NCBI GenBank assembly: GCA_016185205.1 | Contig: JACPOA010000032.1 | Coordinates: 62,001-126,000, forward strand | DNA from: Hyphomicrobiales bacterium | GTDB taxonomy: Bacteria; Pseudomonadota; Alphaproteobacteria; Rhizobiales; Xanthobacteraceae | Direction: 5' to 3' | Length of the DNA: 64,000 bases | Shown: positions 37,146 through 40,206 of the stretch, piece after piece | How the letters are laid out: every line of letters starts with the position of its first letter | How positions within the stretch are numbered: the first letter of the stretch is position 1 | Notes under the pieces: model-generated | Database searches by the model: none | Told to the model about the DNA's origin: nothing | Seen by the model: only the letters and a program-made list of their open reading frames with translations | Made by a program: the position numbers and the translations under genes

Positions 37146-37421
37146 TCATTCGCGGCGGTCTCGTGCAGTGTGAAAAACCGCAACAATCTTAACCGAATCG
37201 TCGCCAACACGATGGACAACGAGATACGGCAAATCCGGCACTGCCAGCAGCCTGATTCCGCGAGGGCCGGTCCGACCGGAAAGAGGCAATGTCGCCAAAC
37301 GACCGATGGATCGTTCAATGCGTGCGACCACCCTCCTGGCGGCATCCGGATCGTCTTGGGCAATGTAGGCGCGGATGGCCTCCAAATCCCTCAGTGCGCC
37401 TCTGAGGTAGACGACCTTCAT
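37146..37421 (-). CDS. ParE/RelE-superfamily toxin
   Basis: 91 residues: KVVYLRGALRDLEAIRAYIA, then ARRVVARIERSIGRLATLPL, and KIVAVFHTARDRRE at the C terminus. This is the compact beta-sheet fold of RelE/ParE toxins, with basic residues near the end. ParE toxins poison gyrase; RelE toxins cut mRNA. The four-base ATGA overlap with the upstream antitoxin gene marks a toxin-antitoxin pair. Confidence 0.85.
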   Translation of the reverse strand: MKVVYLRGALRDLEAIRAYIAQDDPDAARRVVARIERSIGRLATLPLSGRTGPRGIRLLAVPDLPYLVVHRVGDDSVKIVAVFHTARDRRE

Positions 37422-37636
37422 GCCTTCAGCCGACCGAAGACCACCCTCACCTCGTCGTCGGTCGCGATATCGTCTTCATCCAGTCGCCGTTCGATTTCCG
37501 CAATCTGCTCGGGGGTTAGCCAAGTTCCCGCTTCCCGCGCTTCGATATACTCAAACAGGATTTCAGCGGCCTCTTGCTGCTGATCGTCTGAAAGAGCTTT
37601 GACCTTGGTCAGGGCTTCATCGAGGCGTTTGTTCAT
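37418..37636 (-). CDS. Antitoxin of the ParE/RelE pair
   Basis: 72 residues from ATG 37636, with AAGGA upstream; an in-frame start at 37684 has no such site. It has a helical N terminus (LDEALTKVKALSDDQQQEAA) and an acidic C terminus (ERRLDEDDIATDDEV). This fits an addiction antitoxin whose C terminus covers the toxin active site. No DNA-binding domain is obvious. Confidence 0.75.
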   Translation of the reverse strand: MNKRLDEALTKVKALSDDQQQEAAEILFEYIEAREAGTWLTPEQIAEIERRLDEDDIATDDEVRVVFGRLKA

Positions 37637-37718
37637 ATCGGCAATCCTTCGCAGGCATCGATGATAGCAAAAGCGGCTCGCCAAATCGACCGCGCAAATT
37701 GGGCTTGTTGCCTTTCAT

Positions 37719-37991
37719 TCACGGACACCGCCGCAAGTCGCCGCGACAGAGCGCCTCGATGTGGACGGTGTCCCCGGTCCGGTAGGTTCGCCCGATCCGG
37801 CAGGCATCGCCGAACCAGCGCAGGGCATAGTTGGTGACGACCAGAGGCGACCGCGCCTGGGTGTCGCCGGCGCCTGCGCAGAACGATGGTTCGGCCGCCC
37901 AGCGCCCGATGGTGGGATCCTCCGCACCAACCGCCGCCGTACCCAACGCCGATACGGCGACGAGTAAAGCCGCGCACCTTAAAACATTCAT
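37719..37991 (-). CDS. Small secreted protein, originally coupled to rarA
   Basis: 90 residues from ATG 37991, with GCGGGGA directly upstream. The signal peptide ends near AAVGAED. The mature part contains four Cys, possibly two disulphides (FCAGAGD, DACRIG, LCRGDLRRCP). No known family. Its ATG overlaps the stop codon of the duplicated rarA end as ATGA, which indicates that it was once translated together with rarA before the HNH gene came between them. Confidence 0.65.
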   Translation of the reverse strand: MNVLRCAALLVAVSALGTAAVGAEDPTIGRWAAEPSFCAGAGDTQARSPLVVTNYALRWFGDACRIGRTYRTGDTVHIEALCRGDLRRCP

Positions 37992-38088
37992 TCCCCGCCC
38001 CGCTCTTTGCGCAGCTTCGCCCAATAGTCCAGCCGCTTCCTGATCTCGCGTTCGAAGCCGCGCTCGGGCGGATCGTAGAACCGCTGGC
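37988..38088 (-). pseudogene. rarA: Displaced original 3' end of rarA
   Basis: The 101 bases match rarA's last 101 bases (38872-38972) at 93 positions without gaps. Six of the eight differences are synonymous, and only Q/R and H/D change (the first copy is QQFYH, this one is QRFYD). It is not attached to the rest of the gene. It ends with the same TGA and keeps an ATGA overlap with the next gene. It is therefore best read as the old chromosomal end, left behind when a new end was inserted. It is not a gene of its own. Confidence 0.8.
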
Positions 38089-38130
38089 ACGGACCACTTC
38101 GCTTCATCCAAAACTCCGTATCAACTGTGC

Positions 38131-38823
38131 CTAAAGCACGTTGCTTTTTCCGAGATTGCAAGCCTCGCACAGTGTCTGAAGATTTTCGTCTATAGTTTCT
38201 CCCCCATTGCTCCACGCGATAACATGATCAACGTGGAGATGAAGGCCGGGCTTGGCAGGAGGATTTGCCCCGCAGGCACGACAGGTGAAATTATCACGCT
38301 TCAACACTCGGAAGCGCAGACGCAGAGACGGATCACGCGATGTTCGGCGACCGATCGATGCTTCGCTTCTCGGTGGCGCCTGTAGCTCTTCTACGTTTGC
38401 TTGGGCAATGAATTGCTCAAGAGTATCTATCCAAGATCGAAAACGTCGCCGATACGCACCCTGCGATATTACTGAGGGTGGCAATGCCAGTTCCGCGCGC
38501 CTTGGTTGCCGCCCATAATGCTCCCATAACCGCATAATATTTTCAAACAATCGTGCATCGGAATAGTTGATCTCATTTGCGAATTCTAAACCGGCAGCGG
38601 CCACGGCCTTGTTCCATGACCCAAACCGTCGGGATAGAGTTGTGGCAGCATATTTTCCCAATTCCGAATAAAGCTTCTGCGAAATGACATTAGTCCCGCC
38701 CACTTCAGAAACGCGTCGGAGATCGGATAGCAAGTCATCCGTTGAGACTGGTGCTCCCTGTACGCGGTCGAGGGTGAATGTCTTTTTTATCGTTTCCGAA
38801 TAACTGAACAGATTGATCTGCAA
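38131..38823 (-). CDS. HNH homing-type endonuclease
   Basis: 230 residues from TTG 38823, the first possible start; no ATG or site is near. Residues 28-79 form a helical DNA-binding repeat (SRRFGSWNKAVAAAGLE) of the HNH-associated type, with a weaker second one at about 87-136. The C-terminal HNH domain has CRACG (181-185), HVDHVIAWSNGG, and LCEACN (218-223), matching two Cys pairs and catalytic His/Asn. The frame is the same as rarA's: it is open from rarA's TGA and 16 codons run before the TTG. The gene is AT-richer than rarA. Expression could use read-through, reinitiation after rarA, or the weak TTG. Confidence 0.85.
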   Translation of the reverse strand: MQINLFSYSETIKKTFTLDRVQGAPVSTDDLLSDLRRVSEVGGTNVISQKLYSELGKYAATTLSRRFGSWNKAVAAAGLEFANEINYSDARLFENIMRLWEHYGRQPRRAELALPPSVISQGAYRRRFRSWIDTLEQFIAQANVEELQAPPRSEASIGRRTSRDPSLRLRFRVLKRDNFTCRACGANPPAKPGLHLHVDHVIAWSNGGETIDENLQTLCEACNLGKSNVL

Positions 38824-38871
38824 AGCAAGGTTAGCAATTTCGAAGCGACCCGAGCTATTGCACGAACAATC

Positions 38872-38972
38872 TCATTCCCCGCCCCGTTCCTTGCGTAGCT
38901 TCGCCCAATAGTCGAGGCGCTTCCTGATCTCGCGCTCGAAGCCGCGCTCGGGCGGATGGTAGAACTGCTGGC
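38872..38972 (-). repeat. Direct repeat: attached rarA 3' end
   Basis: The last 33 codons and stop of rarA. It is duplicated at 37988-38088 (93/101 identical, same direction). Together the two copies bracket the HNH gene. Confidence 0.95.
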
Positions 38973-40206
38973 GGGGCAGCGCGTCTGGAAAATAATTCTG
39001 TCCGGAGAACGCCTCGTCCTGATCGTGGTCGTAAGAATAGCCGCGGCCGTAGCCTTCCGCCTGCATCAGCTTGGTCGGCGCATTGAGAATGTGCTTGGGC
39101 GGCAGCAGCGAGCCCGCCTCTTTTGCCGTGCGCATGGCGGCGCCGAAGGCCGCGTAAGCGGCGTTCGATTTGGGCGCGGTCGCCACATAGATCAGCGCCT
39201 GCGCGATGGCGAGTTCGCCTTCCGGCGAGCCTAGGAAATCGTAGGCCTCCTTGGCGGCATTGGCGATCACCAGCGCCTGCGGATCGGCGAGCCCGATATC
39301 CTCGATCGCCATGCGCACGACGCGGCGCGCGATATAGAGCGGCGGCTCGCCGGCATCCAGCATGCGGCAGAGATAATACAGCGCGGCGTCGGGATCGGAG
39401 CCGCGCACCGACTTGTGCAGCGCGCTGATCAGATTGTAGTGGCCGTCCTGCGCCTTGTCGTAGATCGGCGCCCGCCGCTGCACGATCTCCTGCAATTTCG
39501 CGGAATCGAACAACTCGTCCTTGCGGGCGGCGCGCCAGACTTCCTCGGCCAGCGTGAGCGAGGCGCGGCCGTCGCCGTCAGCCATGCGCGTCAGCGCCGT
39601 ACGGGCCTCGGTGTCGAGCGGAAGCCGCTTGCCCTCGATTTCTTCTGCTCTTGCCAGCAGCTTCTCGATCGCTTCCGCGTCCAGGGACTTGAACACCAGC
39701 ACGCGCGCGCGCGACAGCAGCGGTGCGTTCAGTTCGAACGACGGATTCTCGGTGGTGGCGCCGACCAGCACGATAGTGCCGTCCTCCATCACCGGCAGGA
39801 AGCTGTCCTGCTGGGCGCGGTTGAAGCGATGGATCTCGTCGACGAACAGCAGCGTGCCCTGGCCCAATTCGCGGCGGCGGCGCGCTTCCTCGAACACTTT
39901 CTTGAGGTCGGCGACGCCGGTGAAAATGGCGGAGATCTGCTCGAAATGCAGGTCGGTTTCCTGCGCCAGCAGGCGCGCCACCGTGGTCTTGCCGGTGCCG
40001 GGCGGGCCCCAGAACACCAGGCAGCCGAGCGAACGCGTCGCCAGCATGCGGGTGAGCGCGCCGTCGGGGCCGAGCAGATGATCCTGCCCCACCACCTCAT
40101 CGAGCCTGGTCGGCCGCAGTCTGTCGGCGAGCGGACGTGGCGCGTCCTTGTCGAGACCGGCGGCCGCGAACAAAGTTGCACCGGCGGCTTTGGCGCGCGG
40201 GGTCAT
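38872..40206 (-). CDS. rarA: Replication-associated recombination protein A (AAA+ ATPase, MgsA)
   Basis: 444 residues. The AAA+ features are FWGPPGTGKTTVARLL (Walker A, 67-75), LFVDEIHRFNRAQQ (Walker B, 122-126), sensor 1 VGATTENPSF and the arginine finger region. The C-terminal oligomerisation domain includes the duplicated end. RarA acts at stalled replication forks. It starts at ATG 40206, overlapping the stop of the DegQ-type protease gene as ATGA. The last 33 codons probably came with the HNH element; the encoded residues are still normal. Confidence 0.93.
   Translation of the reverse strand: MTPRAKAAGATLFAAAGLDKDAPRPLADRLRPTRLDEVVGQDHLLGPDGALTRMLATRSLGCLVFWGPPGTGKTTVARLLAQETDLHFEQISAIFTGVADLKKVFEEARRRRELGQGTLLFVDEIHRFNRAQQDSFLPVMEDGTIVLVGATTENPSFELNAPLLSRARVLVFKSLDAEAIEKLLARAEEIEGKRLPLDTEARTALTRMADGDGRASLTLAEEVWRAARKDELFDSAKLQEIVQRRAPIYDKAQDGHYNLISALHKSVRGSDPDAALYYLCRMLDAGEPPLYIARRVVRMAIEDIGLADPQALVIANAAKEAYDFLGSPEGELAIAQALIYVATAPKSNAAYAAFGAAMRTAKEAGSLLPPKHILNAPTKLMQAEGYGRGYSYDHDQDEAFSGQNYFPDALPRQQFYHPPERGFEREIRKRLDYWAKLRKERGGE

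Follow-up and report, generated by a model that had tools for sequence, protein, structure and literature searches.

Replacement of a gene's end by a free-standing nuclease has been documented, in the accounts drawn on here, in fungal mitochondria (PMC3630166) and in yeast nuclei (PMC7282813). In the yeasts Torulaspora and Lachancea, WHO elements are described as encoding a nuclease that cuts the element-free allele of a gene, whereupon repair brings in the donor's resistant 3' end together with the nuclease gene; what had been the recipient's own end is left as a fragment beyond the insertion, and the functional unit consists of the nuclease gene plus the 3' end that precedes it (PMC7282813). 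For WHO10, the sections of that paper considered here leave the first entry into a new gene, in which a second homology is lacking, unexplained by its authors (PMC7282813). Literature searches, in which subscription journals were thinly covered, returned no report of gene-end replacement in a bacterial chromosome. Here we describe a bacterial rarA locus that we judge, with moderate confidence, to be a gene-end-replacing homing element of putative activity and mobility.

The window is the 64-kb stretch of DNA that was examined, and all coordinates are positions within it. The locus is laid out as follows, with the basis for each feature in brackets:

38872..40206, minus strand: rarA, an intact gene of 444 aa for an AAA+ ATPase with an MgsA_C domain, ending in the inner copy (ORF and Pfam)
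38872..38972, minus strand: inner copy, which completes the rarA reading frame; candidate replacement end (matches the outer copy at 93/101 sites)
38089..38871, minus strand: 783 bp of DNA separating the copies, 50.6% G+C (composition; HNH gene behind rarA in 0/29 congeneric loci)
38131..38823, minus strand: HNH endonuclease gene, 230 aa from a TTG, in a frame open for 246 aa (ORF and Pfam)
38584..38745, minus strand: first HNH_repeat domain, PF18780 (Pfam)
38413..38565, minus strand: second HNH_repeat domain, PF18780 (Pfam)
38140..38283, minus strand: HNH nuclease domain, PF01844, residues 181-228 (Pfam)
37988..38088, minus strand: outer copy, detached from rarA and running through the stop codon; candidate original end (downstream junction as in HNH-free relatives)
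37719..37991, minus strand: small gene, native neighbour of rarA, with an ATGA overlap with the outer copy (homologue straight after rarA in 20/29 relatives)

A sequence-only reading of this DNA had claimed a 101-bp ungapped direct repeat between 37988-38088 and 38872-38972, and its positions, orientation, lack of gaps and 93 identities were all reproduced, as was the count of six synonymous changes among the eight differences, the remaining two being Q/R and H/D. The pair is the sole direct repeat of at least 60 nt that blastn (word 11, dust on; E<=1e-8) detects in the window, and it scores 147 bits, whereas 100 triplet-block shuffles of the surrounding 4.5 kb reach no more than 34.6. At 50.6% G+C, the 783 bp that separate the copies lie well below the 63.4% of the window, with 14/633 same-size windows as low or lower, and a search of the genome itself for a second copy of the whole locus found none. 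The identity of rarA comes from its MgsA_C and AAA domains (Pfam), the NCBIfam RarA model having matched below its cut-off; the label 'secreted' for the small gene at 37719-37991 was given by eye, and an NCBIfam search returned no match for it. Just past the small gene, 37146-37684 encodes a ParE-type toxin (PF05016) and a partner with weak antitoxin resemblance; in the nearest genome (L033) a pseudouridine synthase gene occupies that place.

The claim that an HNH gene lies between the copies holds, since the encoded protein matches both HNH_repeat (PF18780, E 3.3e-21, 75.8 bits against a cut-off of 26) and HNH (PF01844, E 3.6e-11, 43.5 bits against a cut-off of 21.4), and, with 13 family members aligned (the protein among them), it retains every invariant residue. 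Solved structures match the profile of the family chiefly in the C-terminal nuclease part, IscB, McrA and Cas9 proteins among them. Two more specific identities were rejected: IscB, for which NF040563 (NCBIfam) scored 40.1 bits against a cut-off of 175, and the WHO/HO protein family, as the Pfam matches comprise HNH_repeat and HNH and include no intein or LAGLIDADG family. Elsewhere in the same genome, one other site resembles the protein, over 68 residues of its nuclease part, and in 6/42 other genomes of the genus there is a match, confined to ~65 residues of its nuclease domain. Relatives differ in how many HNH_repeat units they have, the window having two, G534 (L086) three and G518 (L087) four; such variation would suit modular recognition of DNA.

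Which of the two rarA ends is native can be judged from related genomes. A rarA search gave a match in 59/60 genomes, the own genome included, and returned 30 rarA loci, 29 of them from other genomes of the genus, behind each of which 1.1-1.5 kb of DNA was inspected. Within that distance an HNH gene follows rarA in none of the 29, and a match to the small gene starts no more than ~100 nt past the rarA stop in 20 of them, further on in two, with none seen in seven. The closest genome, G424 (rarA 96% identical at the amino-acid level), is HNH-free, and in it a single rarA end meets the small gene at an ATGA junction. In the window it is the outer copy that reads ...GGGGAATGAATG, so that its stop codon, TGA, shares bases with the start codon, ATG, of the gene at 37719-37991. 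The absence of the HNH gene from all 29 loci, the direct junction in 20 of them and the arrangement in G424 together identify the outer copy as the original gene end, as had been suggested from the ATGA overlap, and support a reading in which the outer copy and its neighbour are original, and the HNH gene and the inner copy are the newcomer. Presence or absence of the gene at an otherwise kept site, as looked for in a homing gene, is thus seen here between species only. The accompanying expectation, that HNH-free relatives would carry one rarA end joined to the small gene and matching the outer copy, was borne out for the junction, while the match clearly favours neither copy: the single end of G424 agrees with the inner copy at 95/101 sites and with the outer copy at 93/101.

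Cutting, cut site, resistance, mobility and a foreign source for the inner end are the inferred parts of the mechanism that we propose. The mobile unit would be the 3' end of the target gene with the HNH gene directly behind it. In the encoded protein, the two HNH_repeat modules presumably read DNA and the HNH nuclease would cut, its predicted target being the HNH-free rarA allele near the start of the outer copy, ~101 bp upstream of the stop codon. With an element-bearing allele as template, repair would then copy in the donor's rarA end, now the inner copy, along with the HNH gene; the inner copy would keep rarA whole and probably resist the enzyme, and the recipient's old end would be pushed outward and left as the fragment that is the outer copy.

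For a foreign donor of the inner end the support is indirect. In a tree built from the rarA end separately, as the sequence-only reading had proposed and as run on 98 bp, the two copies fall apart with weak support and the inner copy lies near G424, but forcing the two together as sisters is not rejected (AU p=0.175, a test with little power on a 98-bp end), and of ten placements of the inner end tried by AU tests eight were accepted. Both rejected placements are with distant species (L050, L060), which points to a close relative as the probable donor, if one existed. One locus (L259) was left out of the trees because its rarA is incomplete. On the scaled tree of the rarA body the inner end fits slightly better than the outer (lnL -1654.5 vs -1657.0), and an identity scan of the body in 150-bp windows, with the sister L033 best in most and other relatives in some, gave no clear switch of best relative close to the 3' end.

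These results lend some weight to a plain duplication, in which the HNH gene entered, the last 101 bp of rarA were duplicated in tandem by slippage or micro-homology repair, and the copies diverged in place with nothing foreign involved. We regard this as unlikely, albeit as an explanation to be taken seriously: sisterhood of the inner and outer copies is not rejected by the AU test, the sister species is about equally distant from both, and the inner end, at 94% identity to the sister, is no more distant from it than the rarA body at 91.5%. Against it stands the character of the differences, as a detached copy should gather amino-acid changes, whereas 6/8 differences at rarA are synonymous vs 21-26% expected without selection (P 0.0016-0.005). 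It had been claimed that a simple duplication would not give such a bias unless it were old with selection on both copies; this stands against a neutral expectation, but weakens to P 0.025-0.05 for the rarA excess alone when the null is a plain duplication with the inner copy under selection. The mostly synonymous differences favour separate histories for the two copies. They also lend indirect support to a foreign inner end.

HNH relatives were collected from one genome per species across ~85,000 species (one scan, 14 loci), and further from whole-genome searches with the protein, the family or the alignment as query, and from viral contigs, plasmids and phages. A related layout recurs at other genes. 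In G212, which belongs to a different family of the same order, uvrB (UvrB and UVR domains; locus L068) is followed immediately by an HNH gene and then by a detached second uvrB 3' end of 923 bp, 89.6% identical, whose homology ends at about the stop codon. In G1035, from the same class (locus L217), the end of an amidohydrolase gene is separated from its detached copy, 82 bp long and 95% identical, by an HNH gene and a TumE/HVO_A0114 toxin-antitoxin pair; the last 25 bp are missing from the outer copy. On a contig from a viral collection (L120), an HNH gene lies between the end of a transposase gene and a 94-bp copy at 90% identity. The transposase (Pfam matches HTH_38 and rve) we take to be IS30. 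Because both copies stop at an apparent IS end, this locus was weighed least, and it can be read as two IS copies. At all four loci, the window included, no more than ~80 bp separate the HNH gene from the stop codon of the intact gene, which is what a WHO-type unit requires; the HNH gene has the same orientation as the target gene in two and the opposite orientation in two. Native synteny at the detached end was sought at L217 and at the uvrB locus and could not be shown, and the uvrB ends of four genus-mates of G212 are 61-66% identical to both copies alike. At the four differing sites of L217, three HNH-free genus-mates agree with the outer copy at two (3/3) and at a third (2/3), and with the inner copy at the fourth (3/3); in a fourth genus-mate (L231), outside the scoring, the protein has the inner copy's two amino acids. 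The differences at L217 (170-251) and L120 (27-120) cluster by the 5' edge of the outer copy, in the first 29/82 nt and about the first 43/94 nt respectively, which is the side where cleavage is expected; no such clustering is seen between the rarA or the uvrB copies.

How often such a layout arises was gauged by counting a locus as flanked when its HNH ORF was bracketed by direct repeats of at least 60 nt within 1.5 kb, and as full-length at a profile E<1e-50, a cut picked after the list had been seen; three doubly fetched loci were counted once. The window, which is outside the set of 87 loci, was added to the 25 distinct loci at E<1e-50 to make 26. Four of these 26 (window included) are flanked, vs 1/447 control ORFs (p=3.5e-5), the controls coming from the same loci, many on viral contigs, and the sole flanked control being spanned by a duplicated HNH fragment. 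With the window removed and L120 scored as unflanked, the stricter count is 2/25 (p=0.008). No such repeat flanks the remaining 22/26, and 8 of the 25 fetched loci have <1 kb on one side. Among the 87 loci at E<1e-20, the five flanked rows are L068, L120, L217 and the pair L130/L131, which have identical coordinates (61 bp). Phages yielded 24 matching records, none across >80% of the query, and plasmids five, three of them across >80%, with three of the five inspected. A family-wide viral scan took in 80 of 470 confirmed relatives, themselves from more candidates, and further viral scans gave, apart from L120 again, partial matches only. Searches in the family of G480 (3/74 genomes) and in the orders of G1035 (1/7) and G1051 (2/4) gave no HNH locus beyond those known.

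Several other loci were considered and set aside. Repeats at L004 (30 nt) and L069 (45 nt) adjoin the HNH gene and do not bracket it, those at L219 and L223 are intergenic-looking or short, and those at L129 and L149, at 71-72%, fall below the threshold; none of these was counted. At L224, on a Leptospira plasmid, a 72% repeat, likewise below the threshold, brackets the HNH gene, but relatives of this repeat are found on both sides of MazEF as well, which disqualifies it as a gene end. L006 has a duplicated end of a PALP-family (cysteine-synthase-type) gene, ~380 bp at 83%, and was left uncounted because its HNH gene lies outside both copies.

Some of these loci are of interest in their own right. 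At L006 (3411-5165) the HNH gene lies 15 bp from the detached PALP-family 3' end, with a GNAT-like remnant (by eye) between this copy and the intact gene; a newer element may here have displaced an older one outward, in the manner of WHO clusters. On the viral contigs L129 (4746-5411) and L149 (177-757), the HNH gene lies between diverged copies of the 5' end of a terminase-small-subunit-like gene (by eye), possibly a gene-start version of the gene-end layout. L004 (1843-1890) and L069 (6250-6310) share a similar stretch of ~50 nt close to their HNH genes, which are distantly related; it occurs also in five alphaproteobacterial plasmid records, with no annotated gene there or no annotation (the gene table being incomplete). 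In an uncontrolled tally, toxin-antitoxin genes adjoin HNH homologues at L217 (TumE), L085 (YoeB/YefM), L224 (MazEF) and perhaps L223 (Gp49-like).

The other target genes bear in turn on the alternatives. Synonymous differences make up 47/89 at uvrB (P<2e-6) and 8/9 at L120 (P 1e-4 to 2e-4), both vs a neutral expectation, and 2/4 at L217, where there is no excess. With all four loci combined, L217 included, and the inner copy under selection, the duplication null gives P 0.0025 (omega 0.05) to 8e-5 (omega 0.3), and the outer uvrB copy is still an open frame across 301 codons despite ~89 changes between the copies, all of which argues against plain duplication. Improbable, too, is that the outer copy is what erosion has left of a complete tandem second rarA, acquired from a relative, for example by recombination of incoming DNA, with the HNH gene as an unrelated passenger; this would account for diverged coding copies without a nuclease, but it leaves unaccounted for the HNH homologues in equivalent positions at uvrB and at the amidohydrolase gene, each within ~80 bp of the stop. 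Site-specific integration is typically at gene 3' ends with the frame restored, and the position and restored frame at rarA are typical of such events, but integration by a recombinase with the repeats as att-like sites restoring the gene is highly improbable, as Pfam supports no gene in the 783-bp stretch other than the HNH gene, and hence no recombinase, and copies of 82-923 bp at 90-95% identity are unlike short, near-identical att sites.

Gene-end replacement, first proposed for this locus from the sequence-only reading, has a native outer end, a synonymous bias and recurrence at other genes in its favour; the donor of the inner end, if there was one, was probably a close relative. A wider generalisation is attractive, if a little short of an even bet: that bacteria harbour a class of HNH homing elements with a variable number of HNH_repeat units, which retargets the ends of housekeeping genes, carries a replacement end and sometimes toxin-antitoxin cargo, and is a convergent counterpart of WHO elements, leaving mosaic 3' ends behind. 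If gene-end replacement itself holds true, bacterial homing endonucleases could invade needed protein-coding genes without introns or inteins, the 3' ends of some genes would be mosaic and phylogenies thereby misled, and the enzyme would be expected to cut one rarA allele and spare the other.

Among known systems, the free-standing homing endonuclease genes of phages, some of them HNH, resemble the present locus in adjoining essential genes (PMC10448857). They differ in belonging to phages, not to bacterial chromosomes, and the part of that account used here describes no carried replacement gene end (PMC10448857). Closer in layout are the mobile ORFs of fungal mitochondria (Glomus, Allomyces), in which, according to the sections consulted, an inserted C-terminus is fused to the gene, followed by an endonuclease ORF and the detached native C-terminus (PMC3630166). 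Their enzymes are of the LAGLIDADG or GIY-YIG kinds, whereas the enzyme here is HNH, and in them it is the sister species that the native copy clearly resembles most, whereas here the sister matches the inner copy at 95/101 and the outer at 93/101 (PMC3630166). WHO elements are the nearest parallel, sharing a free-standing endonuclease gene behind an intact host gene, the old 3' end beyond it, and fragments at further genes (PMC7282813); this arrangement is found at rarA in the window, at L068 and at L217, and at rarA the detached copy is also the recipient's former end. In the passages of the WHO account relied upon, the protein is intein-like, of LAGLIDADG type and with a zinc finger; it acts in the yeast nucleus and has been shown to cleave FBA1 in an allele-specific manner (PMC7282813). 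The rarA-type elements, by contrast, have an HNH_repeat/HNH protein, are bacterial, carry copies of 82-923 bp, and are known here from sequence alone. What the present analysis adds is recurrence at uvrB and the amidohydrolase gene, and less cleanly at a transposase gene, and the best reading of the comparison is that the rarA element would work like a WHO element yet stand outside the WHO protein family.
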